64,000 nt of DNA, taken from IMG/VR virus record IMGVR_UViG_3300017593_000751, positions 1 through 64,000 of that record; one strand, 5' to 3'. Source of the stretch: a virus. Positions within the stretch are counted from its first letter, which is position 1. Each line of letters starts with the position of its first letter. The notes beneath the pieces are model-generated. The model was given only the letters and a program-made list of their open reading frames with translations. It ran no database searches and had not been told where the DNA came from. Positions 3,724 through 47,038 of this stretch are shown here, piece after piece. A program made the position numbers and the translations under genes.

Positions 3724-3930
3724 CTATTTTGTGTTCGTATTATTTGTGCCGGGCAAAGGCACCTCTTCGGCCCAGCCGAAAGCCTTCAACGCCGCTACAT
3801 AGGCTCTGGCCACTTCCCTGGCCTGCTTCTCCGCGCCCGGAGAATATGGCCAGACGAACACCTCTTGGAAGGCTGGAAGAAACAAGCCGACGGGCTCTTT
3901 GCTATCTCTGCTTTCCTTCTCCATCATCAT
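3724..3930 (-). CDS. Hypothetical protein
   Basis: This 68-residue protein starts at one of three consecutive ATG codons and has only a weak ribosome binding site. It has a hydrophobic middle (GLFLPAFQEVFVWPYSPG) and an amphipathic helix (EKQAREVARAYVAALKAFGWAEEV). It sits between a small basic gene and the head gene. No family was recognised. Confidence 0.5.
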   Translation of the reverse strand: MMMEKESRDSKEPVGLFLPAFQEVFVWPYSPGAEKQAREVARAYVAALKAFGWAEEVPLPGTNNTNTK

Positions 3931-3936
3931 ATTATC

Positions 3937-4074
3937 TCAACGTCCTGTTTGATACGTTCGCGGGGGCCGTACGGGCACCGCGCAAGGTGGCGGGCTCTTG
4001 GCCTTTCTTCTCGCCCTCTTGGTCAATACTTCCAACAGGCGAGCTAACCTTCGTTCTACCTTTCCGGCCTCCAT
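3937..4074 (-). CDS. Small basic, proline-rich protein
   Basis: This 45-residue frame starts with ATG at 4074 inside the end of the metallopeptidase gene and has a GGGAGG site at good spacing. The N-terminal half is a very basic helix (VERRLARLLEVLTKRARRKAK). The C-terminal half is rich in Pro and Arg and ends YQTGR. It fills the otherwise empty gap between two genes and stops seven bases before the next start. The function is unknown. Confidence 0.5.
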   Translation of the reverse strand: MEAGKVERRLARLLEVLTKRARRKAKSPPPCAVPVRPPRTYQTGR

Positions 4075-4901
4075 CCCGCCTCCCTGTCCGCTTTGTAAGC
4101 CTTGGCCCAAACGGCGGCCATGCGGTGCAAGTAAAAGTGAAGAGGGAAGTCCGTATCCACGTCCACGCCGGCGTCGGCCATCATCATATGGCCCAGCTCG
4201 TGCATCAAGACTTCCAGCGTTACATATCCGCTATCCAGACAACCGCTGGGCGAAACCCAAATCCTGGCCCGCTTTTCATCGCTTATCGGCTGGCACATGC
4301 CCCAACAGTCGCGGTCGCCTACCCAAGCCGGGGGGACGTCCTGGACATATAAATCCACGGTCCAGTCCTGAAGGCCCATGACCTCTTTGAACCAATAAAC
4401 TGCTTCGGCTCCCGATGCTTCCGTTAGCCCGCCCTTGTTCTTTCCTTCCGTTTCCGTTGCTTCCGTTTCCGTTGCTTCCGTTACTTCCGTTTCCTCTGTC
4501 TCTATAGCCTCTGTTGCTTCGGAAGGCCCTCCCCTCAACCGAACTGCTGATTCCCAACCGCCCCAGCCTTCCGGCGGAATCAACCTGCCCACCTCACCGG
4601 GGGCCACCGTGGCCACCGCCGTTACCGCCCGGAAATCAGGTGTGGGGGCAAAATAAAAAGGCAGCAATGCCCGCCCCTCCGAAGGCGGGGCGTCGGAATG
4701 GACCTCCACCAACCGAACCTCCTTTTCGTGGGGGAACCACCACACCTCCGTTATCTCGGGGACACAGGCACTGTCCACAGCCAATCTTTCGGCCAATTGG
4801 CGAATCCTCTCCCTGCCCCGAAAGGCCCCAACGGCCATAAGCCTCGCCCCTTCATCCCGCCTACCTTCTTTTCGTTCTTCACTCACCTTTTCGTCCTCCA
4901 T
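4056..4901 (-). CDS. Two-domain protein with HExxH zinc metallopeptidase domain
   Basis: From the ATG at 4901 this gives 281 residues; an ATG at 4838 with a nearby GGGGCGAGG is an alternative. The first domain (to about residue 120) contains EITEVWWFPHEKEVRLVEV and resembles a domain seen in other phage proteins, function unknown. A low-complexity Thr/Glu/Ala linker follows (repeats of TEATE and TETE). The C-terminal domain has VLMHELGHMMM, an HExxH zinc-peptidase motif, after a Cys-containing WGMCQPIS segment. It lies in the head module and may process or organise virion proteins. Confidence 0.7.
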   Translation of the reverse strand: MEDEKVSEERKEGRRDEGARLMAVGAFRGRERIRQLAERLAVDSACVPEITEVWWFPHEKEVRLVEVHSDAPPSEGRALLPFYFAPTPDFRAVTAVATVAPGEVGRLIPPEGWGGWESAVRLRGGPSEATEAIETEETEVTEATETEATETEGKNKGGLTEASGAEAVYWFKEVMGLQDWTVDLYVQDVPPAWVGDRDCWGMCQPISDEKRARIWVSPSGCLDSGYVTLEVLMHELGHMMMADAGVDVDTDFPLHFYLHRMAAVWAKAYKADREAGWRPER

Positions 4902-12250: not shown

Positions 12251-12831
12251 GCTTCTTGGCCAAGCTCAATCGCAGCTATCGCCCCGTCCAACCAATCCCG
12301 TAGTCTGCGGGCGTCTTGAACACTTAGATATAAACTCTCATCGCCTCCGGTCAGTGGCACCAACTCTATTTCGTCCGACCGCTGGCGGAGAGCAACCTTC
12401 GTAGTGTTTTCGTCTACTATTTCCAAATCGTACATCTGCGACCCTGCCTTCAGGCCCAGACGCTTCGCCAATCCCAAAGCGAACTCAAAGACCTCTCGCG
12501 GAGCAACGAGTTCATAGTCCGTTCTAGTTGACGGCGCTAGGCTGCCCTGCCCGTCCTCCAACCTAAGCAAATAGTCCACCCGCCACCCCACCACGGACTG
12601 CAAGCGAGTCCAAAACATCACGGGGAAGAAGTCCTCCCGACACTCCCCGCGAGCGGTCATCCGGCCTTCCTCTTTGTCCGCCACGCCCAACAGCCACAAC
12701 GTAAACCGCTTCGCCCAATCAAAAGGCATTACGACTTCCCAATCGTTCCCGCTCTCCCCCCCACCAGATGGGATGGAGTACATGGGGGTTGCGGGACTCA
12801 TCGAAGAACCATCTAGCACCAGCGAAGTCAA
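12247..12831 (-). CDS. Small protein with repeated strand/helix signatures
   Basis: The longest reading starts with TTG at 12831, overlapping the upstream TGA, and gives 194 residues. An ATG at 12729 (GGGAAG upstream) gives a shorter form starting MPFDWAKRFTLWLLG. Two copies of the strand/helix signature are visible (PFDWAKRFTLWLLG and LSVQDARRLRDWLDGAI). Similar modules occur in genes at 14130 and 26036. The function is unknown. Confidence 0.5.
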   Translation of the reverse strand: MTSLVLDGSSMSPATPMYSIPSGGGESGNDWEVVMPFDWAKRFTLWLLGVADKEEGRMTARGECREDFFPVMFWTRLQSVVGWRVDYLLRLEDGQGSLAPSTRTDYELVAPREVFEFALGLAKRLGLKAGSQMYDLEIVDENTTKVALRQRSDEIELVPLTGGDESLYLSVQDARRLRDWLDGAIAAIELGQEA

Positions 12832-13256
12832 TCATAGCCGTCTGTAACTCCTCGTAACACCTTGCCCAAGAGCCAACCGAGCTCCTCAGCGGTCTCTTTG
12901 GCAACCGTAACCGTTCGCCCGTCTATCAATTTAGGCGTCTTTGACCACCAATTGGACTGGTCCGACCACAGAGAAAAGGTCGCCACAACGCCGGAACCGC
13001 CGCCCGCCTCAGACCAACGCATCAGAGCGGTTTGTCCTTGCTCGTCCGGCTCGTTTTTGAATATCAAAACGCCCCTCCGCTTCTCCCCTGACAACCAAGC
13101 CGACAACGCGGCCACCTGCCCTGATTGCAATTCTAACCGCAGCCCGCGCCAAGCATGGTGAGAAACGGAGGCGGTCTTATCCGCTCGGCTCAAGTCCCAC
13201 AGAGCGCCTGCAAATTCCATATTGCCTAACACCACTTTGATTCTTGATTCAACCAT
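12828..13256 (-). CDS. Hypothetical protein of the strand/helix family
   Basis: This 142-residue protein has a GGGAGAG site before the ATG at 13256. It is beta-rich (IKVVLGNMEFAGALWDLS, SGVVATFSLWSDQ) with helices near VAALSAWLSGE and ETAEELGWLLGKVL. The pattern is like its neighbours, suggesting divergent paralogues. The function is unknown. Confidence 0.55.
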   Translation of the reverse strand: MVESRIKVVLGNMEFAGALWDLSRADKTASVSHHAWRGLRLELQSGQVAALSAWLSGEKRRGVLIFKNEPDEQGQTALMRWSEAGGGSGVVATFSLWSDQSNWWSKTPKLIDGRTVTVAKETAEELGWLLGKVLRGVTDGYD

Positions 13257-13259
13257 CGC

Positions 13260-13571
13260 TCACTCTCCCTTCGCCCCTTTTGGCAACTTCACCGCCCACG
13301 CAAATACGAGCCGGCCCAGCTTAGCGTACACTTCCACAAACTTGGGCTTCTCAAAAGTCCGAGGCACGTTGCGTTTGGACAGCTGTTCGTCAAGGACGCC
13401 GTTCTCCGCCCACTTCCGCAAGCGTTGTGTGACGTCGATTTGGGCTGCGACGATTGCCGCAGTGCGAGTATTGGCCCGGACCGCTGGCCTCGGCAGGCCC
13501 AAATGCGGGCACCACGCCCTCCAACAATCTTCCTCCTTCCAAACCTCAATGCCCAGACCTGTCCAATTCAT
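13260..13571 (-). CDS. HicB-like small protein
   Basis: In this 103-residue protein the first 50 residues (GIEVWKEEDCWRAWCPHLGLPRPAVRAN, then TRTAAIVAAQIDVTQRL) follow the HicB layout of two strands, a conserved P-x-L-G turn and a helix. No HicA-like toxin gene is adjacent, so an antitoxin role is not supported. It may simply use the same fold as the other small proteins in this genome. Confidence 0.5.
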   Translation of the reverse strand: MNWTGLGIEVWKEEDCWRAWCPHLGLPRPAVRANTRTAAIVAAQIDVTQRLRKWAENGVLDEQLSKRNVPRTFEKPKFVEVYAKLGRLVFAWAVKLPKGAKGE

Positions 13572-13918
13572 CCCTTTGCCTTCACTTCCTTCACTTCCTT
13601 CAATTCCTCAAACAGAGCCCTCACCCTAGCCTGCGCCTCCTTCGGCCAGCGGTCTAGTTGGCCGACAAAATCACGCATTCGTGCGCCAGGCCCGCCAGCC
13701 CAACGCACGAGCAGGTGCCATTGGTCACAACAACAGCAACGGAGTGGCTTGGGCGGGTCTATACCTTGCTCCTCCTCTTCCCACGACAGATAAACATAGA
13801 ACTCGTCGAAAGGGAAGCCCCAATAATCGTGGTCATCATGACAGGACTGACAATGCCGCTCTCGCCCATCCTCATCTATCCACGCCTCCCGCTCAGCATC
13901 CCAATACGGGGCGGTCAT
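13568..13918 (-). CDS. Cysteine-rich putative zinc-binding protein
   Basis: This 116-residue protein has HCQSCHDDH near residue 22 and LRCCCCDQWH near residue 60, together forming a plausible zinc site. The C-terminus is a charged helix ending in KEVKEVKAKG. It overlaps both neighbours by four bases, indicating one transcription unit. The function is unknown. Confidence 0.55.
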   Translation of the reverse strand: MTAPYWDAEREAWIDEDGRERHCQSCHDDHDYWGFPFDEFYVYLSWEEEEQGIDPPKPLRCCCCDQWHLLVRWAGGPGARMRDFVGQLDRWPKEAQARVRALFEELKEVKEVKAKG

Positions 13919-14133: not shown

Positions 14134-14510
14134 CTATTTTCCTCTCCGGTCAATAAATCCGCCAAACGCGCCGCCCCCGCCATGCCAAACACAACCGTTT
14201 CCGATTCCTCTACCAAATCCCTTCGGATTGACCTCCGCCACCTTATCGTCCACGGCCTCCAACCATAGGTCACAAACCAATCCTCATAAAATCCTTTTTG
14301 CCACCACACACAAGCCCTACCAGTCTTACTGACCATAACCAACGAGCGCTCATCATTCCAAGCCCTCTCCAAAAGCCACGAGCGCATTCGTTCGGCCCAC
14401 TCAAAGCTTATCTCTATGGCCTCACCGTCCCGCCACAAAGGATGAGACAAGAACCAACCCTTGTCCGTTCTGGTCCAGGAGCCATTGAATATCTCAAACT
14501 GCATCATCAA
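14130..14510 (-). CDS. Strand/helix family protein
   Basis: This 126-residue protein is tryptophan-rich. It contains EIFNGSWTRTDKGWFLSHPL and then ISFEWAERMRSWLLERA, the recurring strand/helix signature, with a second one near VVFGMAGAARLADLLTG. It overlaps the sliding-clamp gene by four bases. The function is unknown. Confidence 0.5.
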   Translation of the reverse strand: MMMQFEIFNGSWTRTDKGWFLSHPLWRDGEAIEISFEWAERMRSWLLERAWNDERSLVMVSKTGRACVWWQKGFYEDWFVTYGWRPWTIRWRRSIRRDLVEESETVVFGMAGAARLADLLTGEENR

Positions 14511-15946
14511 TCAACCCTCTCCATCGGCATCACCACATAAATTATATCCGCCCCGGCAACAATTACCCAAGGCTTCCGCTCCGGCTCCTCCGGCCCCAAA
14601 ACCTCCACCTTTTCCCGGCCCGCCTTGGCCAAGGCGGAGAAGATGCTCTGCAAAAAGGCAGCATTGAATCCCGAAGCCACCTTCCCCCCCTTCATCTCCA
14701 CAGCCGGCATGGAGGCCCAAACCTTGGAATCGCCGGGATAACTTTTAACCTCGCGGCTCAAGAACAGCTCACCATCCGAAAAGGACACATCCACATAAAA
14801 CGTATCAGCCTCCGCCGCCCTCATCTGCTTGACTATTAGTTCAACCGCCTCTTTCGTCGGCTCTACTTCCAGCCCCCACCGATAAGCCGAAGCCTCCAAA
14901 CTCTCCGGCTTATCGGGGATAAAAGGCTTCCAATCCGGGAAGCCGCCCACCGGCGAACAACCCACGAGAAGAACGGCCTCCCCGAACTCACCGGAAGTCT
15001 CAAACCTCACATAATCCCAGGCTGCGGGCGACATCTCCGGCACCTGGTTTTCCTTCACCTCTTCGCCCCGAAGCTTTTTCCTGCCGTTCGCCAGCTCAGG
15101 GCGAAAACAGCTCACTTCACAGCTGTCCCCGCCAAAGGCTGAAACGACCTTGCCTTTCCTGGGGGCCAGCCGGGCCAAGAGACTAAAAGCCGAAGGAGGC
15201 ACCAAATAAGGCTTTTCCAACAGTTTGACTGTCTCTTTTGCTTCGTCCTCCGGCATAGTAGCAACGGCCTCTTCTATCCGCGATGTTGCTATAACATGCC
15301 CTTCGGTGGCCACCAGCCTTATCTCGCCGGGATAAAAGGCTATGCGGTTCAAGGCATATCTTGTGCCCACATCGGCACAAAAGTCCTTGACTACCTCAAA
15401 AGCCCGCAGCAAAGAGGCCGTGCCTGTGTGGACAACGCCGCCGGCGGCATCATCACTTAGCTGCACGGGCGAAGGATAATCGCCGGGGTCCAGACTTTCC
15501 AATGTCGCGCCTGCCTTGGCCTTGCTGCCCTTGCGTGGCTTCGATAGCTTCAAAAGAGCCTTGCTTTCACTGACATCTTCCGCAGGCCCGATGGACAAAA
15601 ACCCAACCTCTTTCGGTTTGTCTGGTCCTCTAAAAACCAGCTCAATTGGCCCATCGGCCCGGCCCAAGGCAGCCACCAAACGGCGAGCCGGCACCAGCAA
15701 AACCTTTGGTGCTTTCTCGCCGGCCTGGCGGACAACCACCGGCATTGTTAGCTCCAATGTAACCTCTAAATCAGTCGCCCTCAGCCGCAGCTTCGCCTCT
15801 TTGTGCAAAGCCTCCAAGTAAACACAAGACAAGACGGGCTTCGGAGTAGAACGTGGGACCACATAGTCCAACAAGCCCGCGGCCGCCTTCAATGCCTGCC
15901 CGTTGACTACTACCTTGGTCGCTTGAGAATCAATACCTTCGGTCAT
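14507..15946 (-). CDS. DNA polymerase III beta-type sliding clamp (late-arm copy)
   Basis: At 479 residues this is longer than the usual 360-380. Beta-clamp hallmarks include VLSCVYLEALHKEAKLRLRA and ATDLEVTLEL in domain 1, FCADVGTRYALNRIAFYP and LVATEGHVIATSRIE in domain 2, and the C-terminal YVVMPMERVD, equivalent to the YxVMPMRL end of DnaN. A 100-residue excess lies mostly in the middle and third domain. GGGAG precedes the ATG. It is separated from the polymerase gene by 13 kb and lies in the leftward block, so a role beyond replication is possible. Confidence 0.85.
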   Translation of the reverse strand: MTEGIDSQATKVVVNGQALKAAAGLLDYVVPRSTPKPVLSCVYLEALHKEAKLRLRATDLEVTLELTMPVVVRQAGEKAPKVLLVPARRLVAALGRADGPIELVFRGPDKPKEVGFLSIGPAEDVSESKALLKLSKPRKGSKAKAGATLESLDPGDYPSPVQLSDDAAGGVVHTGTASLLRAFEVVKDFCADVGTRYALNRIAFYPGEIRLVATEGHVIATSRIEEAVATMPEDEAKETVKLLEKPYLVPPSAFSLLARLAPRKGKVVSAFGGDSCEVSCFRPELANGRKKLRGEEVKENQVPEMSPAAWDYVRFETSGEFGEAVLLVGCSPVGGFPDWKPFIPDKPESLEASAYRWGLEVEPTKEAVELIVKQMRAAEADTFYVDVSFSDGELFLSREVKSYPGDSKVWASMPAVEMKGGKVASGFNAAFLQSIFSALAKAGREKVEVLGPEEPERKPWVIVAGADIIYVVMPMERVD

Positions 15947-18580: not shown

Positions 18581-19192
18581 CTATTTCCTTTCCGCCCACC
18601 GCCGATACCCCGCAGGCCCTCGGCGGTACAATTCGGCCATTTGCTCCGGCGTGGAAGCGCCGACCCTCGGCGCGTAGTATTCCAGCCAGGCCCGAACCAG
18701 CCGCCGGCACTGGGCCACGTCGTACGGGTCCACCGTCTCGCCGGTCAGGCGCATCACGTCCTCGGCCCATATCGGCGTCACCTGGAACTCGCCCCGCTCG
18801 CCGGCAGGACCGACCACGCCGCGCCGGCAGCGCGGGTCTTGGCCGTAGCGGGACTCGCGCCAGTGAATCAGCTTAACCGCCCTATCCCAAACGTCCACCA
18901 CTGGCCGAGAACCCAGCTGCCACAAACTGTCTGATGACGAAGAAAACGAAACGGGGTTATTCGTCTGTCCTGCCTTCTTCATTAGGGCTTCAAGGCGGGT
19001 TATACGTTTTTCTAATCGGGCCAAACGCTCCTCAAATTGGCCCAAACAATATCCCAAGGTCGCCCCCACCGCCGAAAGCACTAAAAACCCCGCGACTGTT
19101 TTGGGCCAAAAACCTGAACCTTTCCTTGGAGCCTCAAGCGGTTCAAACGGCGAAGGGTCATGCGGGATGTTCTTCTTGCCCGCAGCGACCAT
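18581..19192 (-). CDS. Membrane-anchored lytic-transglycosylase-like protein
   Basis: This 203-residue protein has a transmembrane helix at about 34-50 (AGFLVLSAVGATLGYCLG), a coiled coil at 52-75, and a C-terminal lysozyme-fold-like domain with WRESRYGQDPRCRRG, GPAGERGEFQVTPIW and a tyrosine helix. The glutamate in ESRYGQD is the expected catalytic residue of transglycosylase-type lysozymes. It could be the lysis enzyme or a virion muramidase. It overlaps the next upstream gene by 35 bases. Confidence 0.65.
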   Translation of the reverse strand: MVAAGKKNIPHDPSPFEPLEAPRKGSGFWPKTVAGFLVLSAVGATLGYCLGQFEERLARLEKRITRLEALMKKAGQTNNPVSFSSSSDSLWQLGSRPVVDVWDRAVKLIHWRESRYGQDPRCRRGVVGPAGERGEFQVTPIWAEDVMRLTGETVDPYDVAQCRRLVRAWLEYYAPRVGASTPEQMAELYRRGPAGYRRWAERK

Positions 19193-27205: not shown

Positions 27206-28246
27206 ATGGACAGAAAGAAACTGATGAATGAGTTGGTCAAGGTCTATCCCGCCGTGGACGCTCGCGCTGTAACGGAGGAGATGAAGTGCTTCCGTTTTGC
27301 AGGCCGGCGGGTAGTGGCCAGCAACGGCAACGTGGCCGTATGGGCCGAGCTGCCGGAGGACACCGGCATTGACGGCCTGGTGCCTGCCGAGAAGTTCTTC
27401 CACCTGCTGTCCGACTTGCGGGAGGACGAGCTGGAGATTGAGCAGAAGGACAATGAGCTTCATATCACCTGCGGACGATGTAGGGCCAGATACAAGATTC
27501 GCCCCCATGAGGGCGGATTCCTGGACTCATTGAAGGTAGAGGTTCCCGACGATGCTTGGCGTCCTTGGCCTGAGAAGATGGACGAAGGCTTGAAACTCTG
27601 CCGGTTCGCGGCCTCCCGCGACGCCAGTCAGGGAGCCTTGTGTGGAGTCCATGTGGACGACGAGGGCCTAGTTGCCACCGACTCTTATCGTATCGTCGGG
27701 TATTCCGGCGCACGGCTGCCGGAAGGCTGGGAGCCTCTTACGCTGTCTCAAGACTTGCTGGACGTGCTGGCCAAGCAGGGCGAAGCGGTCGAATCCTGGG
27801 CCGTGGTGGACGGGACGGTGTATTTGAGCTTGGGGTCCACCAAAATCGGGGCCAGGCTGCTGGCCAGCGAGTTCCCTGCGGGGGCCAGGCAGTTCTTGGC
27901 CCAGGCGGCGGAGTTGCCCGAAGAGGTGGAGCTGCCTCAAGAGCTTATCGAGGCCGTCCGCCGGCATGGGGACCAGATGTCCGACGTGCCGGACCTGGAC
28001 CGCGAGATTACAGTGTTGCTGGGGGAAGGCAAGCTGACAATCTCCAGTTCCGATGGTGTGCTGTATGAGCTGTCGGAAGACCTGGACCTGCCCGACTCGG
28101 CCACCAAGGTATCGTTCAAGGTCAATCCCAGCTTCTTGGCCGATGTTCTGGGCCTGACGCGGAAAATGGCCTACGGGGCCGACAAGCGCATGGTGGCTTT
28201 CAAGGCAGAGGATTTTACTTATCTGACGGCGGTAGAGTGGGTATAG
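27206..28246 (+). CDS. Beta-type sliding clamp (replication copy)
   Basis: This 346-residue protein shows the bacterial beta-clamp layout: CRFAASRDASQGALCGVHVD and LVATDSYRIVGYSG in the second domain, VSFKVNPSFLADVLGLTRKM in the third, and the end AEDFTYLTAVEWV in place of the usual YLVMPMRL. Domain 1 is divergent. It is directly upstream of and overlaps the polymerase gene, so it is most likely the processivity factor for that enzyme. Confidence 0.75.
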   Translation: MDRKKLMNELVKVYPAVDARAVTEEMKCFRFAGRRVVASNGNVAVWAELPEDTGIDGLVPAEKFFHLLSDLREDELEIEQKDNELHITCGRCRARYKIRPHEGGFLDSLKVEVPDDAWRPWPEKMDEGLKLCRFAASRDASQGALCGVHVDDEGLVATDSYRIVGYSGARLPEGWEPLTLSQDLLDVLAKQGEAVESWAVVDGTVYLSLGSTKIGARLLASEFPAGARQFLAQAAELPEEVELPQELIEAVRRHGDQMSDVPDLDREITVLLGEGKLTISSSDGVLYELSEDLDLPDSATKVSFKVNPSFLADVLGLTRKMAYGADKRMVAFKAEDFTYLTAVEWV

Positions 28247-34699: not shown

Positions 34700-35084
34700 G
34701 CTTCAAAGGGCCAAGGAAAATCCTGCCTCTAGATACTGGCGGAACAAGGCGGATGAGGCTTGGAGAAAGGCGGTCTTGACAAGGGATGGTTATCGTTGCG
34801 TTGTTTGCGGGACAGACCGCAATCTTCAGGTCCATCATCTGTTTAGTAGAGGCCGGGCGGATACACGGCACGAAGTTTCAAACGGGATAACGTTGTGCTC
34901 AGCGCATCATAAGTGGAGTCGGGAGATTAGCCCTCATAAGGGACCGGTGGCTTTCTTTCTGTGGCTCCAGAAGAACCGTCCTGACCAATGGGAATGGCTG
35001 AAAAAACATGTAGCTGAACCTGAAAATTACAAGCCTGATTTTCGGGAGACATATAATAGACTGAGGGCAAACGAAGATGGGTAG
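34671..35084 (+). CDS. HNH endonuclease
   Basis: The ATG at 34671 has GAGGAAAAG upstream and overlaps the recombinase end; 137 residues. The core is CVVCGTDRNLQVHHLFSRG, then SNGITLCSAHHKW: the two CxxC/CxxH zinc pairs and the HH...N...H catalytic set of HNH nucleases. The N-terminus is basic. It could be a free-standing homing-type nuclease or a repair nuclease. No intron is seen around it. Confidence 0.85.
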   Translation: MAKRRKKKSKLQRAKENPASRYWRNKADEAWRKAVLTRDGYRCVVCGTDRNLQVHHLFSRGRADTRHEVSNGITLCSAHHKWSREISPHKGPVAFFLWLQKNRPDQWEWLKKHVAEPENYKPDFRETYNRLRANEDG

Positions 35085-35088
35085 TGGG

Positions 35089-35215
35089 TCAAGAATGAAA
35101 TCACCTCGTTTTTCGTGGGCCACCCGGAGCGTTGCCCCTCCCATCTTAGTAGAAACAAGCGGGTTTGTGGGCCAGGGTCAGAATCGCCCCGTCTTTTGTG
35201 GGTCATAAAGAGCAT
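35089..35215 (+). repeat. Degenerate direct repeat of about 55 bp
   Basis: Two copies run GGGTCAAGAAT...CGTTTTTCGTGGGCCA...GAGCGTTGCCCC and GGGTCAGAAT...CGTCTTTTGTGGGTCA...GAGCATCGCCCC. The gap 35085-35336 contains no convincing gene. The origin is unknown. Confidence 0.5.
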
Positions 35216-35231
35216 CGCCCCAATCCGAGGA

Positions 35232-35330
35232 ATAATAGTTTCGGTCAGGTAAGGCATGGTCAGGTGAGGTTGGGCGGGGTATGGTGAGGCAAGGTCGGGT
35301 CCGGTGTGGTGTGGTAAGGTGAGGTAAGGT
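35232..35330 (+). repeat. G/T-rich short-repeat tract (GGTAAGGT/GGTGAGGT)
   Basis: About 100 bases consist of irregular units such as GGTAAGG, GGTGAGG, GGTCAGG and TGTGGTGTGG, with almost no C. It lies between the HNH gene and a nuclease fragment. The repeats are too irregular and lack spacers, so this is not a CRISPR array. The strand asymmetry is striking. Confidence 0.6.
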
Positions 35331-35336
35331 TTGGCG

Positions 35337-35486
35337 ATGAAAGAAGCTATCCTGAAAAGGCAAGGTTGGACCGTCATCAGACTGCATTGGCGAGACATAG
35401 AACAAGATGTTCAAGCTTGTGTAGATAAGATTTTGGCGGCAATTCCAGCGAAGTCTGCGTATAATAGACTGGTCGGCAAAGATTGA
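35337..35486 (+). pseudogene. Truncated PD-(D/E)xK-type (DUF559/Vsr-like) nuclease fragment
   Basis: This 49-residue frame reads LKRQGWTVIRLHWRDIEQDV then QACVDKILAAI, which matches only the last strand/helix of DUF559/Vsr-like nucleases. An in-frame TAA nine bases upstream of the ATG, and the G/T-rich tract before it, mean the catalytic part is absent. AAGG lies before the ATG, so it could still be expressed. Confidence 0.5.
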
Positions 35487-35487
35487 A

Positions 35488-35643
35488 AACCAAAGATTGC
35501 CCGCCTGAGGCGCGGGGAGCGCCTCGTTGGCAGCCTGTGCTGGCTCAATATTGGCCGGTCCCAATCGGAGAGGGTAGGCGGCGACGCGACGCCGAACGGC
35601 GGCGGCAGCCCGGCTGGGGAAACCGGGCAGGCGGGCATGACAT
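35488..35643 (+). ncRNA. Structured RNA-like element, copy A
   Basis: An outer stem pairs GCCCGCC (35499-35505) with GGCGGGC (35630-35636). A second stem GAGGCGC/GCGCCTC lies at 35507-35525. The terminal hairpin is CCCGG-CTGGGGAAA-CCGGG (35609-35627). The element starts AACCAAAGATTGCCCG, repeated in copy B. Stems change but pairing is kept between copies. Confidence 0.7.
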
Positions 35644-35647
35644 TGAC

Positions 35648-35805
35648 AACCGAAGATTGCCCGTCCGGGGCACGGCAGGTGCCCGGTGGCGCTGCCCGAG
35701 GCCACAGAGGCCCGAACTGCCTGCCGCGAGAGTGAAGCAATGCTGCCCGCTCGAGCGCGGCATTGCGGGCAGGGGACTCGGCTGGGGAAACCGAGCGGAT
35801 GGACA
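35648..35805 (+). ncRNA. Structured RNA-like element, copy B
   Basis: It starts AACCGAAGATTGCCCG. The outer stem CCGTCC (35661-35666) pairs with GGATGG (35797-35802). The second stem is GGGCAC/GTGCCC (35668-35684). An internal GCAATGC/GCATTGC stem is perfect. The terminal hairpin is CTCGG-CTGGGGAAA-CCGAG (35777-35795). It directly precedes the gene at 35827. Confidence 0.7.
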
Positions 35806-35826
35806 CAAGATAAGAGGAGACAGACA

Positions 35827-36078
35827 ATGGCGAAGGCCAAAACTGACCTTGAGGCGGTTCGGATTTTGTTGGCACAATGCCTTGAATGGGAATTGTACCG
35901 GCACAAAAGCAAGGGATATGCGTGCGGCATCAAACACAAAGGTGAATGGCTTTATGCTTGCGGTCGTCAATTGAGGTTTGCAATCGCCGCCGCTTTGGAC
36001 GCGGCGGGGCTGAATCCGGGCGGGCAAGCGAAGGAGAGGATGAATGGCAACGGAGAAATCATTAGTAGAAAAGCTTAA
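35827..36078 (+). CDS. Small protein with WELYxxxSKGYxC module
   Basis: The ATG at 35827 follows AGAGGAGACAG; 83 residues. It reads CLEWELYRHKSKGYACGIKH then GEWLYACGRQLRFAIAAALD, a hairpin then helix module found in several other small genes on both arms. The length and shape resemble phage alpha/beta sandwich (ABA-type) small proteins. The function is unknown. Its leader contains copies A and B of the RNA-like element. Confidence 0.6.
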   Translation: MAKAKTDLEAVRILLAQCLEWELYRHKSKGYACGIKHKGEWLYACGRQLRFAIAAALDAAGLNPGGQAKERMNGNGEIISRKA

Positions 36079-36316
36079 GGTCATCTCTAAAGACTACGAC
36101 CGGCTTAGAGAAGTCCTGACCGCTCGCGTCGATGGTATGAACGAAAAGAACACTATTGGTCGGTTTGAAGATTCGGGTGTGTTGAGGATTGAAACCATTA
36201 TTTCGGGCGCCACTGTGTATCTCTCTGAGACCGGTCAAGCCCAGCTTGTCCGCTTCATCTGCCGTGCGCGGGGCTGGCAAGTTCCGCCGGAAATTGTGGA
36301 GGAGGAGGAGAAATGA
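36044..36316 (+). CDS. Hypothetical protein
   Basis: This 90-residue protein has its ATG inside the end of the previous gene after GGAGAGG. It has a helix (EKLKVISKDYDRLREVLTAR) then strands (GVLRIETIISGATVYLSETG) and a helix. The function is unknown. Confidence 0.55.
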   Translation: MATEKSLVEKLKVISKDYDRLREVLTARVDGMNEKNTIGRFEDSGVLRIETIISGATVYLSETGQAQLVRFICRARGWQVPPEIVEEEEK

Positions 36317-36519
36317 CTTGGTTCATCCTCGCTGCCTTGGTGTACCTCGTCGGCTTCGTCGTGGCCTTCGTCCTGACCGTCGGAGAGGACTTCGGATGGA
36401 AGGATGCCGCCCTGTTCGCGTTGTGGTGGCCGATAGTGGCAGCGGTCTTGATTGTGTTGTTCGTAGATGAAACCATAAGACAAGTATGCAGCAAACGGCG
36501 GAAGGAGAACAACCGATGA
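36313..36519 (+). CDS. Small membrane protein with two transmembrane helices
   Basis: This 68-residue protein has WFILAALVYLVGFVVAFVLT and LFALWWPIVAAVLIVLFV as hydrophobic segments, with a basic C-terminus (CSKRRKENNR). GAGGAGGAGAA precedes the ATG. The function is unknown. Confidence 0.6.
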   Translation: MTWFILAALVYLVGFVVAFVLTVGEDFGWKDAALFALWWPIVAAVLIVLFVDETIRQVCSKRRKENNR

Positions 36520-36752
36520 CAAAGCAAACAGAGCGAATAAATACGTTTGGCTTGTTGGCCCAACTCCGGCGGATGAACACAGAATGGCACTTGGGGTATA
36601 GTCCGCGAGAGGGCCATTATTGCCACGTCTGGCTCCCGGCGGCGCTCGGCGGAAACTATTTGGCGTCGGGCCGAGACAAAATCATGGGCAGGGCAATCAA
36701 GCAAGCTCTTGTCGAAGTAGAACGCATCAGGCAGGCGGAAACAGGAGGATAA
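36516..36752 (+). CDS. Small protein with hairpin/helix module
   Basis: The start at 36516 follows AAGGAGAACAACC and overlaps the previous stop; 78 residues. It begins INTFGLLAQLRRMNTEWHLG, then EGHYCHVWLPAALGG and GRAIKQALVEVERI. The gene at 37942 has the same layout (NTLNLLAKLRREHEFWELYR...YFCRIW...GEAIQEALEGV), so they are paralogues. The function is unknown. Confidence 0.6.
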   Translation: MTKQTERINTFGLLAQLRRMNTEWHLGYSPREGHYCHVWLPAALGGNYLASGRDKIMGRAIKQALVEVERIRQAETGG

Positions 36753-36755
36753 CCA

Positions 36756-36905
36756 ATGACCAGGCCAGCAAGGAACGGAAGCGGTCGCGGACGTGGCCAG
36801 CCCGGCGGAGGACGCCGGGGCAGGAACACCGGCCCATGCCGCCGAGGTGGCCCCGGCTACGGTCGAGGCGGCGGTCGTGGTAAGGGTACCGGAAGGCAAG
36901 GATAG
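36756..36905 (+). CDS. 49-residue RGG-box protein
   Basis: The ATG at 36756 has GGAGG ten bases before it. The peptide is about half glycine and arginine, with GSGRGRGQPGGGRRGRN and RRGGPGYGRGGGRGKGTGRQ. RGG-type sequences bind RNA or other nucleic acids in known proteins. It is immediately followed by copy C of the structured element. The function is unknown. Confidence 0.5.
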   Translation: MTRPARNGSGRGRGQPGGGRRGRNTGPCRRGGPGYGRGGGRGKGTGRQG

Positions 36906-36954
36906 GTATCATCCGAGGCCACGTGGCCTTTGCCCTGAACGCCTCGCCTGCGGG

Positions 36955-37080
36955 CGACGGCTAGGGGCAAGCCCGCCCGGATTGATTGACGTGGAAGAGT
37001 GCAGGGCGCGGCGGCGGGAGGAATCACCGACCGCCAAAACGCCCACGGGAACCGCCGAGGGGTAAGGCGGCGGGCGGGCA
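36955..37080 (+). ncRNA. Structured RNA-like element, copy C
   Basis: The outer stem GCCCGCCCG (36971-36979) pairs with CGGGCGGGC (37071-37079). The terminal hairpin is CCGCC-GAGGGGTAA-GGCGG (37052-37070). A 5' hairpin with TTGCCC/GGGCAA arms precedes it. The hairpin loop is nine bases with central GGGG, as in copies A, B and D. It lies in the gap before the gene at 37108. Confidence 0.65.
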
Positions 37081-37107
37081 AGGCAGGACGGAAAGGAGAC
37101 TACAAAA

Positions 37108-37566
37108 ATGACAAGAGTATCAGACTTCTTTAGATGGTGGCAGGCGCTTGACCAATGCCTGCCCGACGGTTGGTGTCTGAGGGCGGGCATCAATGGGGAC
37201 GACGGCCATTGGTTTTACACATGCTGCGCCAAGCCGCAATTGACTCGCCCTATCGCAACATGCGCTGGCAGCCCTGTTGAAGCGGCCAATAAGGCCGTCT
37301 GGGCGTCTCAACAGGAAGAAACTTGGTGGGAGGCACTCAGCCGCCTTTTCCCTGACGGATGGTGTATTTCAAGGTACATCACTTCACAAAACGACGTACT
37401 CTACGGATTCGCTGATTTCCGCTATTACCCGGCGCAGACCACCAGTGGCCGCACGCCCGCTGAGGCCATAATTGGCGCGATTGACGCGCGAATTGATGAG
37501 CTGAAACAAGAGAAGGAATGCCGGGAGGCCCGAGAGATTGCCAGGAAAATAGCTAGGTGGCTGTAA
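37108..37566 (+). CDS. Tandem two-module small protein
   Basis: This 152-residue protein has an internal repeat: WWQALDQCLPDGWCLRAGIN...SPVEAANKAVWAS and WWEALSRLFPDGWCISRYIT...TPAEAIIGAIDARI. Each unit is helix, strand pair, helix, like phage ABA-type domains. AAAGGAGACTAC precedes the ATG. The end is a basic coil. The function is unknown. Confidence 0.65.
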   Translation: MTRVSDFFRWWQALDQCLPDGWCLRAGINGDDGHWFYTCCAKPQLTRPIATCAGSPVEAANKAVWASQQEETWWEALSRLFPDGWCISRYITSQNDVLYGFADFRYYPAQTTSGRTPAEAIIGAIDARIDELKQEKECREAREIARKIARWL

Positions 37567-37655
37567 CCAAAGGCAACCCCGCCCGGACGTAAGGGAAGAG
37601 GCGGTTGCTAGCGCCGCGGGAGTCCCCGAGGGGTACGGGGACGGGCGGGAATGGG
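37565..37655 (+). ncRNA. Structured RNA-like element, copy D
   Basis: It begins AACCAAAGG as in copy A. The outer stem CCCGCCC (37578-37584) pairs with GGGCGGG (37643-37649). The terminal hairpin is GTCCCC-GAGGGGTAC-GGGGAC (37622-37642). It is shorter than the other copies but keeps the nine-base GGGG loop next to the outer stem. It lies before the gene at 37727. Confidence 0.65.
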
Positions 37656-37726
37656 CTGAATGGCCGGAGGTATAGACGATGGCGAGAGGCAGCCCAATGC
37701 ATCAATCTATTGAAAGGAGGACAGCA

Positions 37727-37942
37727 ATGCCTGATGTTCAAACGAACTTAGCCGTGGCCAAAGAGGGCCTTTCGCAGGCGTTATACAAAACGCACAAAGC
37801 ATCGGAATGGATGTCTGGAAGAGTGCGAAGCTATCGGGTCGCCCTTGACGCGGTGAGCGAGGCCTTCCGGGCAGCAGAAACAGCGATGATAGCTTTAGGC
37901 CAAGTTCGGAAAGTTTTGCAAACAGTGAGTAAGGATAAATAA
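37727..37942 (+). CDS. Small helical protein
   Basis: The ATG at 37727 follows GAAAGGAGGACAG, a strong site, and is preferred to upstream in-frame ATGs; 71 residues. It is almost entirely helical (LAVAKEGLSQALYKTHKASE, VSEAFRAAETAMIALGQVRK). The function is unknown. Confidence 0.6.
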   Translation: MPDVQTNLAVAKEGLSQALYKTHKASEWMSGRVRSYRVALDAVSEAFRAAETAMIALGQVRKVLQTVSKDK

Positions 37943-40974: not shown

Positions 40975-41251
40975 TGAGCAAAACGAGCTTAGAAAAGACC
41001 TAGCACGGGTCAAAGAGGCCAAGGCCAAGTTAGAAGAAGCTGAGCGGCGGGTGGAGCAATTGAAGGGCAAGCGGGCCGCATTGTTGGACCGTCTGAAGAA
41101 TGAGTTCGGCTTCTCCAATCCGGCCGAGGCGGAGGGCCGCGTAGAAGAGATGGAAGCAGAGATTATGGACTTGGAAGGACAGCTGAAGGACGAATTGGAA
41201 CGGATAGACGACCTGTTGAAAGAGATGGAGGAACAAATCGATGAGGCTTAG
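40964..41251 (+). CDS. Coiled-coil protein between split Rad50 halves
   Basis: This 95-residue protein starts with GTG after AAGGAGACTAGAC. It is nearly all heptad-like (LRKDLARVKEAKAKLEEAER, EGRVEEMEAEIMDLEGQL). Similar short coil proteins are found next to gp46/gp47 genes in other phages. It could supply part of the coiled coil. Confidence 0.6.
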   Translation: MADSEQNELRKDLARVKEAKAKLEEAERRVEQLKGKRAALLDRLKNEFGFSNPAEAEGRVEEMEAEIMDLEGQLKDELERIDDLLKEMEEQIDEA

Positions 41252-41453
41252 ATGTCCGAAGTGCGGTGAAACTAATATAGATGCTACTTTTACTTGGGGC
41301 GGGGAGTACGAATGCCCCAAATGTGGGGAGGAATGGCAAATTGATTTGGTGGAGCTGGCCGCTCAGGCCACAAGGGCCTTGGTAAATATAGACCATTCCT
41401 TGGTTCAATTGAACCGGAACCTGCAAGCCTTGTTGCGAAAAATTGACCACTGA
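41241..41453 (+). CDS. Zinc-ribbon plus coil protein between split Rad50 halves
   Basis: This 70-residue protein has RLRCPKCGETN and YECPKCGEEWQ, a CxxC...CxxC ribbon, and then a helix with hydrophobic heptads (SLVQLNRNLQALLRKI). GGAGGAAC precedes the ATG. Both flanking genes are tightly coupled. A role with the Mre11/Rad50 complex is inferred from position. Confidence 0.55.
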   Translation: MRLRCPKCGETNIDATFTWGGEYECPKCGEEWQIDLVELAAQATRALVNIDHSLVQLNRNLQALLRKIDH

Positions 41454-42927: not shown

Positions 42928-43406
42928 TAGCTCTACTCGTTTTGGTAGGCTGTCGGCCCCAAACGGACGTAAAGGCAGATACGCACGTGGACGTGCAGCC
43001 TCCGCGTGTGGAGGTCAAGCCGGGCGCAATCACCGCCACCATGCCCGTGGAAGCTACGGCGTTCAAGCGGAACGAATCTTTGAACCAGGACCAGACCACC
43101 GGGGGCTGGGGCATAAACATCGGCAAGGTGGAGATAGACGGGCTGTCCCTGGCCCTGGTACTCCTATTGGCCGGTATTTGCCTTCTCTTGTATGGCAGGC
43201 ACAGAAAGGCGATGACCACGGTGGACATGTTCGTAAAGGCCGTTGAAGAGACCGTTGAAGAAAACGAAGAAAGCTCGCGGCTCCCGGAAAAGCTTCGCCT
43301 CATGGCCCTGAGCCGGGGCGTGGAAGGCTTCTTGCGTTCCCGCATCCGCAAGGTCCGCAAGGTCCGTAAGGCTGATAAGACTGACAAGAGAAAGGAAAGC
43401 AAATGA
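42864..43406 (+). CDS. Lipoprotein-like membrane protein, embedded start
   Basis: The GTG start at 42864 follows GGAGGACCGG inside the previous gene; 180 residues. The N-terminus has a signal ending LLVLVGC, a lipobox. A second hydrophobic segment is SLALVLLLAGICLLLYG, followed by a basic cytoplasm-like tail (RSRIRKVRKVRKADKTDKRK). This overlap of two membrane genes recalls lysis cassettes, but the order does not match Rz/Rz1. Confidence 0.6.
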   Translation: MGSFGNSFKSGCFAAGLVVGLVALLVLVGCRPQTDVKADTHVDVQPPRVEVKPGAITATMPVEATAFKRNESLNQDQTTGGWGINIGKVEIDGLSLALVLLLAGICLLLYGRHRKAMTTVDMFVKAVEETVEENEESSRLPEKLRLMALSRGVEGFLRSRIRKVRKVRKADKTDKRKESK

Positions 43407-44290
43407 AGGTTCTAGTAGCCGGACCATACGTGGGCGAATTGGGCTGGGAGCTGTTCAGCTGGCAGCCGATGGTCCGCCGCGTTTGGCTGGACAATAAGCC
43501 GGACAAAACCATCGTGTACACGCGCCCGGGCCGGCGGTTGTTCTATCGCTTCGCTGACGAAGTGCGAGACCAAAAGCTGCCCGACCACGAAGCTGAATGC
43601 CTAGCTTGGCACGACTTGGACAAGTATATGGATGAGTTTACCGGGGCTATCAGGGCCGTCCAGGAGCAGGCCAAACAGGAGTTCAAGGGCCACAACATAG
43701 TGTTCTTCGGCTATCCTGCCTTGAAACAGTTGAACCGGCCCTACTACGCCCAAGGCGCGCCGGACTTGCTGTACGGTGAGCAGAAGCGGGCGGAGGAATT
43801 GCTGGCCGAACATAATAACGTGGTGGTCCTGTGTGTGCGGGATAGGGCCATGAGTGATTATCGCAACTGGCCTTACGAAGAGTGGGCGGCACTGGGGCGG
43901 TATTTAGCCGCTGGCGGTTGGTCGGTGGTGTATCTGGGGCGAATCCGCGACATGGTGAGGTGGAATGTGTTGATGAGCGGGGTCTTGACTTCGCCCCAAC
44001 GCGAGGGAGTGGTCATAGACCTGACCAACCGAACCTCTTTAGACGATTGCTTGTCTGTGATGAGCAGGGCCAGGCTCGCGGTAGGCGGTTCTTCCGGCCT
44101 GCTTCACTTGGCCAGTCGATGCGGGCTGGACCATCTGGTTTGGGGTGCCCCTTCCGCCCGTTCTCGATACGCTGAAACCAACTGGTTCGGTGCCCACTTC
44201 AAGTTCTTGTCTGTGGGTTGGCAACCTAAGTGGGAAGATATAGCTTCCGAAGCGGAGCATTATCTGGAAAAAGGAGCCTTCCGGCCATGA
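43403..44290 (+). CDS. GT9-like glycosyltransferase
   Basis: This 295-residue protein has VGELGWELFSWQPMVR at the start, a central WPYEEWAALGRYLAAGGWSV, then RTSLDDCLSVMSRARLAVGG and SSGLLHLASRCGLDHLVWG, typical of heptosyltransferase-like GT-B enzymes. It is the first gene of a glycan operon and overlaps the previous stop (ATGA). The acceptor is unknown. Confidence 0.7.
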   Translation: MKVLVAGPYVGELGWELFSWQPMVRRVWLDNKPDKTIVYTRPGRRLFYRFADEVRDQKLPDHEAECLAWHDLDKYMDEFTGAIRAVQEQAKQEFKGHNIVFFGYPALKQLNRPYYAQGAPDLLYGEQKRAEELLAEHNNVVVLCVRDRAMSDYRNWPYEEWAALGRYLAAGGWSVVYLGRIRDMVRWNVLMSGVLTSPQREGVVIDLTNRTSLDDCLSVMSRARLAVGGSSGLLHLASRCGLDHLVWGAPSARSRYAETNWFGAHFKFLSVGWQPKWEDIASEAEHYLEKGAFRP

Positions 44291-45051
44291 AGAAGGCCAG
44301 GGTACTCATAACGTTTGATGATGGTTTGTATAGTCATAGATTGGCGGCGGAAGCCTTGGCGGAGCGTGGACTGAGAGGGGCGTTCGCCGTGATAACGTCC
44401 CGCATAGGTCGGCCCGGAGCGCTGACTGGCTTGGACGTTTTGAACATGGCCCATCAGGGGCATTTCATCTGCAATCATTCCGCCCGCCACAAGTGGGCTG
44501 GCAGGGGAGAGCCTAAGCCGGGCCGAAAGGCTTATTCCAGGGCGGAAATAACCAAGGATTATCTGGAGGGATTGCGTTGGGGGCGGAAGCTGGCCGAATC
44601 CGATAGCGTGCCTGCCAATGTCCGCGATAATATCCGCATGGACTATCTGTGCGTTCCTTACGGTACGGCCAACGTGTTCGGGCCGGAGCATTTGCGGGAA
44701 CTGCTGGGCCATTTCCGTTGGATACGCCTGACCGTGGGGGCACCGAACCCTGCTGACAAGGCTAGCTGGATAGCGGAGGGGGGCAAGCGCATCTATCCCG
44801 GCGACTATCGCGGGCCGGTCATCGGCATTTCCGCCGCCGCGGATGCTCGATATCCTGACCGCATCAGGGAGACCTTGGAAACGGCGATAAAGGTTGGGGG
44901 GTTGGCGGTGTTGTTATATCATGATGTAGCTCATATATTGGGCAGGGGACAAGACGTCACTTGGGAGCAATTTGAGTCCGACTTGGACTTTATGAAGGAA
45001 CGAAAAGAGGCGGGACTGTTGGAAACCGTCTTGCCGCCCGATATACGATGA
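44287..45051 (+). CDS. NodB-type polysaccharide deacetylase
   Basis: The start at 44287 overlaps the previous stop; 254 residues. Motif 1 is ITFDDG, motif 2 is NHSARHK (HxxxH), and a CVPYG segment gives motif 3. A late LLYHDVAH supplies the catalytic histidine region. These enzymes remove N- or O-acetyl groups from polysaccharide using a metal. It acts in the glycan pathway of this operon. Confidence 0.8.
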   Translation: MKKARVLITFDDGLYSHRLAAEALAERGLRGAFAVITSRIGRPGALTGLDVLNMAHQGHFICNHSARHKWAGRGEPKPGRKAYSRAEITKDYLEGLRWGRKLAESDSVPANVRDNIRMDYLCVPYGTANVFGPEHLRELLGHFRWIRLTVGAPNPADKASWIAEGGKRIYPGDYRGPVIGISAAADARYPDRIRETLETAIKVGGLAVLLYHDVAHILGRGQDVTWEQFESDLDFMKERKEAGLLETVLPPDIR

Positions 45052-45143
45052 GTCATAGAACAGCACACAACAAGAGCCGTCGTAGGCGCAAGGTAGGCAG
45101 AAAGAAGCGCAGGGCCAGAAGGAAAGCGAAAGGGAAGCCATGA
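45048..45143 (+). CDS. 31-residue Arg/Lys-rich peptide
   Basis: The ATG overlaps the deacetylase stop and the TGA overlaps the next ATG, so it is translationally coupled on both sides. It reads MSHRTAHNKSRRRRKVGRKK then RRARRKAKGKP, more than half basic. It is probably a nucleic-acid-binding peptide; the function is unknown. Confidence 0.55.
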   Translation: MSHRTAHNKSRRRRKVGRKKRRARRKAKGKP

Positions 45144-45919
45144 TATATGCTCTAGCTATTTCAACTCGCGGAGAGGAACGAATCAACTTATTGAGGACTT
45201 GGCTGCCCTCTTTGCTTCGCCAAACGCTCAAGCCTGATTTGATTTTGCTGGTGAACAACAACGACGCCATATCGGACATGGACTTGTTGAACATGGTATC
45301 AAAGGACCATCGCCCGCGTCTGCCCATAGAGGTCAGGAGCAACGTGGACCGCACGCCCAGCGACGCCGCAGGTTCGCAGCTGGCCTTGGAGGTTCTTGGC
45401 GAAGCCTATCCCGTCATCGTCAAATGGGATGATGATTTGGTGCCTATGGTGGACGATTGCATGGAGAGGTTGGTTTCGTTGGTTTACGCGGGCTTCGCCG
45501 CAGCCGGGGGGATGTACTATCGGCTGCTGGACAAAGCCAGGTCGTTGATGGGGCCGAACGGTCCTGCCTCTGGCGACAAGAACGATAATCATCTTCAGTT
45601 CTTCCGGTGGTCCGGTCATCATACGTTGATTCGCAGAAGGCACCTGTATTCGTCCTTCGCCTACGATGCTCGGCTCGCCCGCGAAATCGGCGGGTTCTGC
45701 GTAGAGTATTCACAGCTCAGCTATCGTCACGAAACGGACTTCACCCTTCGTTTGAATAAAGCTCGGCCCGGTTTGGTGGTGGATACCGCGGCGGAGGCTT
45801 TACACTTGGTGGCCCAAGGTGGGGTCCGCGAGTTCTCGCGGGCTTGTTACCAGGAAATGGCCAAAAAGGACCAGGCCCTCTTTCAAAAACGAATGAAGGC
45901 CGAAGGAATCAAGGTATAG
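45140..45919 (+). CDS. GT2-like glycosyltransferase
   Basis: This 259-residue protein has a GT-A start (MIYALAISTRGEERINLLRT), LLRQTLKPDLILLVNNND, and the metal-binding VKWDDDLVP. A RHETDFTLRL motif late in the protein fits the ED-type catalytic region. It adds a sugar from a nucleotide donor. The donor is unknown. Confidence 0.75.
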   Translation: MIYALAISTRGEERINLLRTWLPSLLRQTLKPDLILLVNNNDAISDMDLLNMVSKDHRPRLPIEVRSNVDRTPSDAAGSQLALEVLGEAYPVIVKWDDDLVPMVDDCMERLVSLVYAGFAAAGGMYYRLLDKARSLMGPNGPASGDKNDNHLQFFRWSGHHTLIRRRHLYSSFAYDARLAREIGGFCVEYSQLSYRHETDFTLRLNKARPGLVVDTAAEALHLVAQGGVREFSRACYQEMAKKDQALFQKRMKAEGIKV

Positions 45920-45928
45920 GAGACCACG

Positions 45929-47038
45929 ATGTATCTAGCCGTGTTGGTCAGTCCGGAGAACCCTTGCCCACCTACCGCCTACGGAGGGGCGGAGCGGCGG
46001 GCGGCCATTATCGTGGAACGGCTTTTAGAGCAAGGCCATGCTGTGGATTTGTACTGCGGGCCGAACAGCCGACAACACGCCACGCGGCGGTTCTTGGCGT
46101 CGTCGCCTTCTATGAGCAAACAAGAGGAATATCTACGGGAATTGTTTAGATTAAGCTGTCTAAACTTCCGCTACGATTGCTGCATTGACTTAACGCCTCA
46201 TCATATAGTTAGCTCCCTCGGCTGCCCCCCTTACCTTTCCTCGGCTGACTTGGAAAAGCCTTATCCCGTTGTCAGCATCATGGGCGGGGACCCGCTGAAG
46301 AAGTATCCGCACGATGAGGTTCGTAACCGCGTCTATGTCAGTAGAGAGTTCGCCGAGTTCTGCGGCTGTCCGGACCATCCGGTGCTTCATAACGTGGTTC
46401 ACCCCGCTCCCGAGGCTATTCCCCTGGGCAAGGGCGGGGGCGGATATGCCCTATATGTGGGCGTGGTTCGCCCGGAGAAGGGCGTGTTAGAAGCTGAACG
46501 GGCTTGCGCTTCCGTAGGGATTCCGCTGAAGGTGGCGGGGCCGATTAGGGACTTTGATTACTGGGACCGCTTCCGCGACCGCGTGGAATATCTAGGGATA
46601 TTGCCGAACAACGATGAAGTCCGCAGCGAGGTGTTCGGCAAGGCGGACGTGTTCGTATATGCTCCGTTGTGGTGCGATGCTGGCCCCTTGGCCCCGATGG
46701 AAGCCATGCTTTACGGGACGCCCGTGGCCGGCTTCGCTGTGGGCGGATTGGCCAGTGATGTGGAGGACGGCGTGGGGGGCTGGCTGGTGAGGGAAGGAAT
46801 CTTCGCCGAGGCGAAGCTGATGGAAGGCCCTCCAAACGCCAACGTCCGTACCAAAGAGGCCACGCGGCTTGAAATGTCGGCTGAGACAATACAGAGGCTG
46901 GCCGACGCAATAGAAAAGGCTTTGTTGGTAGAAAGGAAAGGAGTAAGGGAGAGCATCTTGCCGAAGGTTGACCCGGAGCGGCATGTTGCCCAATTGATGC
47001 GGTTGGTGACCCGGGCCGCTAAAGGGGAGGAGTGGTAA
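45929..47038 (+). CDS. GT4-family glycosyltransferase
   Basis: This 369-residue protein has CPPTAYGGAERRAAIIVERL at the N-terminus, YALYVGVVRPEKGVLEAERA at the start of the donor domain, and PLAPMEAMLYGTPVAGFAVG with the ExxxxGxP motif. These are typical of retaining GT-B family 4 enzymes. AGGAGACCACG precedes the ATG. Confidence 0.85.
   Translation: MYLAVLVSPENPCPPTAYGGAERRAAIIVERLLEQGHAVDLYCGPNSRQHATRRFLASSPSMSKQEEYLRELFRLSCLNFRYDCCIDLTPHHIVSSLGCPPYLSSADLEKPYPVVSIMGGDPLKKYPHDEVRNRVYVSREFAEFCGCPDHPVLHNVVHPAPEAIPLGKGGGGYALYVGVVRPEKGVLEAERACASVGIPLKVAGPIRDFDYWDRFRDRVEYLGILPNNDEVRSEVFGKADVFVYAPLWCDAGPLAPMEAMLYGTPVAGFAVGGLASDVEDGVGGWLVREGIFAEAKLMEGPPNANVRTKEATRLEMSAETIQRLADAIEKALLVERKGVRESILPKVDPERHVAQLMRLVTRAAKGEEW

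Follow-up and report, generated by a model that had tools for sequence, protein, structure and literature searches.

Four copies of a GC-rich element in a phage replication block

What are the GC-rich sequences that recur between the replication and recombination genes of this phage, and do they act as RNA? The DNA analyzed here, which we refer to as the window, comprises the first 64 kb of a 73,277-bp viral record. Judged from its portal, terminase, replication, and recombination genes, the virus is an uncultured tailed phage. A sequence-only reading had described four copies of an element with a shared architecture, and our analysis bears this out with refined coordinates. The copies, A to D, are all on the + strand and point the same way as the genes; they are spread across 2.2 kb of a gene block for replication and recombination (polymerase, clamp loader, UvsX, and SbcC/D). 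Each lies within an intergenic gap and forms a GC island of ~72% compared to 46-59% in the flanks.

All copies share three parts: an outer GC helix of 6-9 bp, a middle that varies from 38 to about 115 nt, and a hairpin whose 5-bp stem closes a 9-nt loop of the form NNGGGGWAN. Total lengths are about 85-155 nt. In 4/4 copies, a single C links the hairpin to the 3' strand of the outer helix, so the earlier description of these two parts as directly adjacent has to be amended. The AACC[A/G]AAG lead reported for A, B, and D is present in all three, and C has no such lead.

Copy A (35488-35635; lead AACCAAAG) has a hairpin, CCCGG-CTGGGGAAA-CCGGG, at 35609-35627 and the C linker at 35628. Its outer helix pairs CCCGCCT (35500-35506) with AGGCGGG (35629-35635). 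The claim that the outer stem changes between copies while remaining paired holds, but the version given for A (CCCGCC/GGCGGG) does not, as the helix has 7 bp and its T-A pair uses the "extra" A. Copy B (35648-35802; lead AACCGAAG) starts 12 nt past A and has the outer helix CCGTCC (35661-35666)/GGATGG (35797-35802), the hairpin CTCGG-CTGGGGAAA-CCGAG (35777-35795), and the linker at 35796; A and B thus form a tandem and are 82% identical over 34 nt at their 5' ends. In copy C (36961-37079), the outer helix CCCGCCC (36972-36978)/GGGCGGG (37072-37078) can be extended to 9 bp, and the hairpin is CCGCC-GAGGGGTAA-GGCGG (37052-37070) with the linker at 37071. Copy D (37565-37649; lead AACCAAAG) is the shortest, and the AACC of its lead overlaps the TAA stop codon of the preceding gene; the copy has the outer helix CCCGCCC (37578-37584)/GGGCGGG (37643-37649), the hairpin TCCCC-GAGGGGTAC-GGGGA (37623-37641), and the linker at 37642. 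C and D are 94% identical over 16 nt in the 5' part and 78% identical over 41 nt at the 3' end.

No intrinsic terminator was found on the + strand in the A-D region, making readthrough into the next gene plausible. Upstream of the copies, no sequence is conspicuous as a dedicated promoter. ARAGORN detected no tRNA or tmRNA.

Pairing is conserved while the stem sequences change

Using a strict descriptor (5-bp hairpin, 9-nt NNGGGGWAN loop, and outer stem), we identified exactly A-D on the two strands of the window. Over the 73,277-bp record, the descriptor matched four times on the + strand and not on the − strand, compared to an average of 0.057 matches per Markov-resampled genome; because the descriptor was built from the four copies, this comparison is biased in their favor, and conditional tests are fairer. 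The sequence-only reading held that the hairpin stems differ between copies and yet always pair. Indeed, 20/20 hairpin cells are paired, and shuffling within the 3' arm with the loops fixed equaled this in only 31/200,000 trials. For the outer stem, the same type of shuffling matched the observed pairing in 3/200,000 trials.

Covariation against a null model, a test set beforehand, gave a concordant result. In alignment A6 (four copies and 45 columns, with the variable middle cut out by hand), 96.2% of the cells in 13 pairs are paired, and 0/500 shuffles were as good. Seven of the 13 pairs, i.e., all five in the hairpin and two in the outer stem, show changes on both sides. When the partner columns were slid by 1-3 positions, pairing fell to 35-52%. 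The split between A/B and C/D explains two of the hairpin pairs and, more generally, four sequences in two subfamilies provide few independent events, so the covariation support is good and not overwhelming. These results support that selection acted on pairing, not on sequence, in A-D, and that A-D are probably functional RNA. Only one G-U pair, of the kind that favors RNA over DNA, is present. We also considered a pseudoknot between the loop and either the 5' strand or an upstream TYGCCCC repeat; one possible covariation (the loop W with the base two before CCC) is insufficient to claim it.

Folding energies do not set the copies apart, with unremarkable minimum free energy z-scores of −0.15, −0.60, −1.35, and −0.81 and no excess over shuffled sequences. 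In the predicted ensembles, both helices are strongly supported in A and C. In B, only the outer helix is supported, and the hairpin is not favored in the unconstrained ensemble. D forms mainly the hairpin, with an outer helix probability of 0.19, and prefers a rival GGCAACC/GGTTGC fold. Enforcing the architecture places B 3.8 and D 2.6 kcal/mol above their respective minima.

A-D match no known RNA class and no other genome searched

The element had been said to belong to no recognizable RNA class, in agreement with our finding that Rfam 15 has no match at gathering scores in the window; at E ≤ 5, the region 35200-37800 returned implausible weak matches only. The homologues in related phages to which the sequence-only reading had looked for confirmation were not found. 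A covariance model (R2) searched against 34 full viral records matched this genome only. No A-D-like copy was present at the loci of relatives found via UvsX, polymerase, and SbcD, and the UvsX search of genome contigs returned distant relatives only. The element region had no blastn match in named phages or plasmids. Among the IMG/VR matches listed for the pattern GGCTGGGGAAACCG, none had the full architecture. Three further IMG/VR patterns gave matches that we rejected: four to AACCRAAG+CCCGYCC+GGGGWA, in coding sequence and judged to be chance; six to GAGGGGTA-N6-CGGGCGGG, none with the full architecture and one, in L226, resembling a T-arm context; and 26 to AACCRAAGATTGCCCG, all lacking both an outer stem and GGGGWA. 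Contig L128 carries a long folded insert in an intergenic region (18760-18870) that ends in a tRNA T-arm-like GGTTCGATTCC, and ARAGORN predicts no tRNA there. An omega/reRNA of TnpB was likewise considered and rejected, as the sole TnpB-type match in the record is below threshold (41250-41348, in a 77-aa frame resembling a zinc ribbon).

As no search returned a homologue, phylogenetic confirmation is limited to four paralogues of one genome. On the sequence evidence, A-D are an orphan motif, found in one genome in all searches, and a new example of a structured non-coding element in phages.

A-D may be intercistronic RNA elements acting on downstream small genes

Each copy had been placed just upstream of a small gene. 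This applies to B and C, while A precedes B, and the start of the gene after D is ambiguous. The gene directly after B (35827-36078, +; 83 aa) has its ATG 24 nt past the outer helix, with AGAGGAG upstream. The gene between C and D (37108-37566, +; 152 aa) has its ATG 29 nt past the outer helix, with AAAGGAG upstream. The gene after D (37679-37942, +) encodes 87 aa if it starts at 37679, which is 29 nt from D; the ATG at 37729, 79 nt from D, has a stronger Shine-Dalgarno sequence and is an equally good candidate. Thus, B and C lie between a stop codon and a Shine-Dalgarno sequence with a consistent spacing to the ATG, as does D in spacing if its gene starts at 37679. The genes after B and C have no family match, and none of the small genes beside A-D has a convincing PHROG or Pfam family; two of them were searched against named phages using blastn and tblastn and gave no match.

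The position in gaps, the common orientation, the GC islands, and a divergence that preserves structure are all consistent with an intercistronic RNA element. We tentatively favor, as quite possible, that A-D are a lineage-specific intercistronic RNA that works in cis, as a binding or processing site, for the small genes that follow; in this reading, transcription, the RNA form, and the role are all inferred. In this scenario, the long + strand operon transcript would contain four diverged copies of one element. Across the single C, the outer helix would stack on the hairpin with the GGGGWA loop, producing a rod on the 3' flank of a multiloop, the other arms of which would be free to vary. The recognized part would be the conserved loop, together with the AACCRAAG lead in A, B, and D. 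A protein or RNase would bind or cut the element just upstream of the Shine-Dalgarno sequence and could, in this way, jointly set how stable, or how well translated, the messages of the small genes downstream are. RNase III sites of T7 are intercistronic processing hairpins of phages. Like these sites, A-D are predicted to be structured RNA in the gaps between small genes of a polycistronic phage transcript, a short distance ahead of where ribosomes bind; they differ in their fixed GGGGWA loop and variable-size multiloop. If A-D are transcribed and factor bound, they would add a small structured RNA to the known phage motifs, one recognized from paralogous copies within a single genome, where comparison between genomes yields nothing. 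The put RNA of HK022 (PMC9378689) is a short structured cis-acting phage RNA that acts on RNA polymerase in a lambdoid early operon. Compared with put, A-D are similar in being short structured phage elements for which cis action is proposed, and dissimilar in that no promoter-proximal arrangement is evident and no Rfam match exists.

Possible but doubtful is that A-D are stand-alone structured non-coding RNAs, perhaps cut from the operon transcript and acting in trans, e.g., with a 49-aa RGG-rich protein. The conserved loop letters, the compact GC-rich fold, and the A/B tandem would suit such RNAs, as would the small RGG-type ORF with a good Shine-Dalgarno sequence between B and C. However, the middle and the length differ greatly between copies, no dedicated promoter is evident, and the link to the RGG ORF is one of proximity alone.

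We regard it as unlikely that A-D are a short palindrome of the MITE/REP type, mobile or duplicated, which spread among the small genes and is kept by mobility and not by an RNA role. The four copies, including one tandem pair, are indeed restricted to gaps between lineage-specific genes in an interval that is hypervariable among relatives. Nevertheless, the diverged copies still pair, unlike recent transposition products, no target site duplications were seen, and neither the rest of the genome nor any relative searched has a copy. The record contains neither a Y1 transposase (RAYT/TnpA; the hallmark of REP/IS200-like elements) nor a tyrosine integrase (PF00589) nor a reverse transcriptase (the hallmark of retrons and group II introns), which further weakens this explanation. 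A-D were accordingly not assigned to REP/IS200-like palindromes or to retron or group II intron RNA. Integron attC sites are diverged sites with a conserved fold beside small genes, and A-D are like them in having diverged, kept their fold, and adjoined small genes; we rejected this assignment because the RYYYAAC/GTTRRRY core boxes are absent by eye and no tyrosine integrase is encoded.

A structural site in single-stranded DNA, such as a replication, priming, or packaging signal, is improbable. The copies are within a replication/recombination gene block, and conservation of structure by itself cannot separate single-stranded DNA from RNA. But A-D share the orientation of the genes and are flanked by stop codons and ribosome sites, and four scattered copies over 2.2 kb would be unusual for a single origin.

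Very unlikely, finally, is that A-D, as multi-copy RNAs with a constant GGGGWA loop, join a dedicated small RNA-binding protein in a phage ribonucleoprotein system that is as yet undescribed and acts in trans on host or phage targets. The candidate for that protein would be the RGG peptide encoded at 36756-36905.

That 49-aa arginine/glycine-rich ORF lies between B and C and has a strong Shine-Dalgarno sequence; it may encode an RNA-binding protein. Just upstream of A (35331-35486), a 51-aa ORF resembles the C-terminal end of a DUF559/Vsr-type nuclease with a sub-cutoff match (E value, 6.6e-4) and is probably a homing endonuclease remnant.

The UvsX-SbcC interval carries different arrays in relatives

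Relatives differ greatly in what lies between UvsX and SbcC, a hypervariable interval. The nearest contig by UvsX is L126 (55%), followed by a group near 39%; by polymerase, it is L235 (51%), and by SbcD, L245 and L249. In L245, the interval holds a RuvC-like gene alone. In L235, it holds an HNH gene, a GGTNN pentamer array, and an HNH homing-type gene, and in L126, a RuvC-like gene, another ORF, a hairpin array, and a Transposase_20-like gene.

The L126 array (12280-12760) has seven perfect stem-loop units and one mismatched unit and is followed by a gene at 12779-13675. We identified a similar array of nine units in L222 (1058-1588; gene near 1605-2435) and, by eye, another in L223 (2660-3830; gene near 3840-4769). 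In L126 and L222, each unit is enclosed by a stem (8-12 bp); inside it, CA comes first and is followed by a TGTCACCC-like core with variable bases on either side. The stems mostly differ between units with compensatory changes. The arrays adjoin proteins with weak matches to Transposase_20, and an IS110-type PDB chain is a further match of the L126 protein. Stems that vary and yet always pair are a hallmark of the TIGR stem-loop arrays with TasA described by Faure et al. (2025) (PMC12045711). The L126 and L222 arrays fit the TIGR stem-loop architecture laid out in section 9 of PMC12045711. Together with L223, they are apparent TIGR-Tas loci of uncultured phages, with a TasA-like candidate encoded directly downstream.

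L126 has its array in the corresponding position; could A-D, then, be units of a TIGR array that have diverged? Despite the syntenic location and the multiple copies with variable, compensatory stems that always pair, as in the arrays of PMC12045711, we consider this extremely unlikely and rejected it, since inspection and a pattern scan of both strands found no two spacers of 8-12 nt between box C (CCA-like) and box D (UG) in any copy, the hairpin abuts the outer stem and leaves no room for spacer B, the unit length is irregular, and no Tas or Nop-domain protein was detected in the 73-kb, possibly incomplete record. Since PF01798 failed to detect even the TasA-like genes of L126 and L222, the informative searches are those with PF02371 and the Tas profile.

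Other repeats lie upstream of copy A in the window. Right after an HNH gene, the region 35084-35225 has four GTGGGYCA-N9-T(C/T)(G/A)CC(C/T)C repeats (35084-35221) with start spacings of 31, 52, and 31. They resemble a short degenerate TIGR-type dual-repeat array, with no Tas gene found in the record. GGTNN pentamer arrays follow an HNH gene at 35240-35335 in the window and at 17347-17407 in L235, conserved in place and pattern. These comparisons show that, in this phage group, different structured arrays, apparent TIGR-Tas loci included, repeatedly enter the region between UvsX and SbcC.

Elsewhere in the replication arm, the window encodes glycosyltransferases (GT9-like and GT1-like) and a polysaccharide deacetylase at 43403-47038. 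Two proteins of this phage, encoded at 14507-15946 (−) and 27206-28246 (+), match the DNA polymerase processivity factor family phrog_947.
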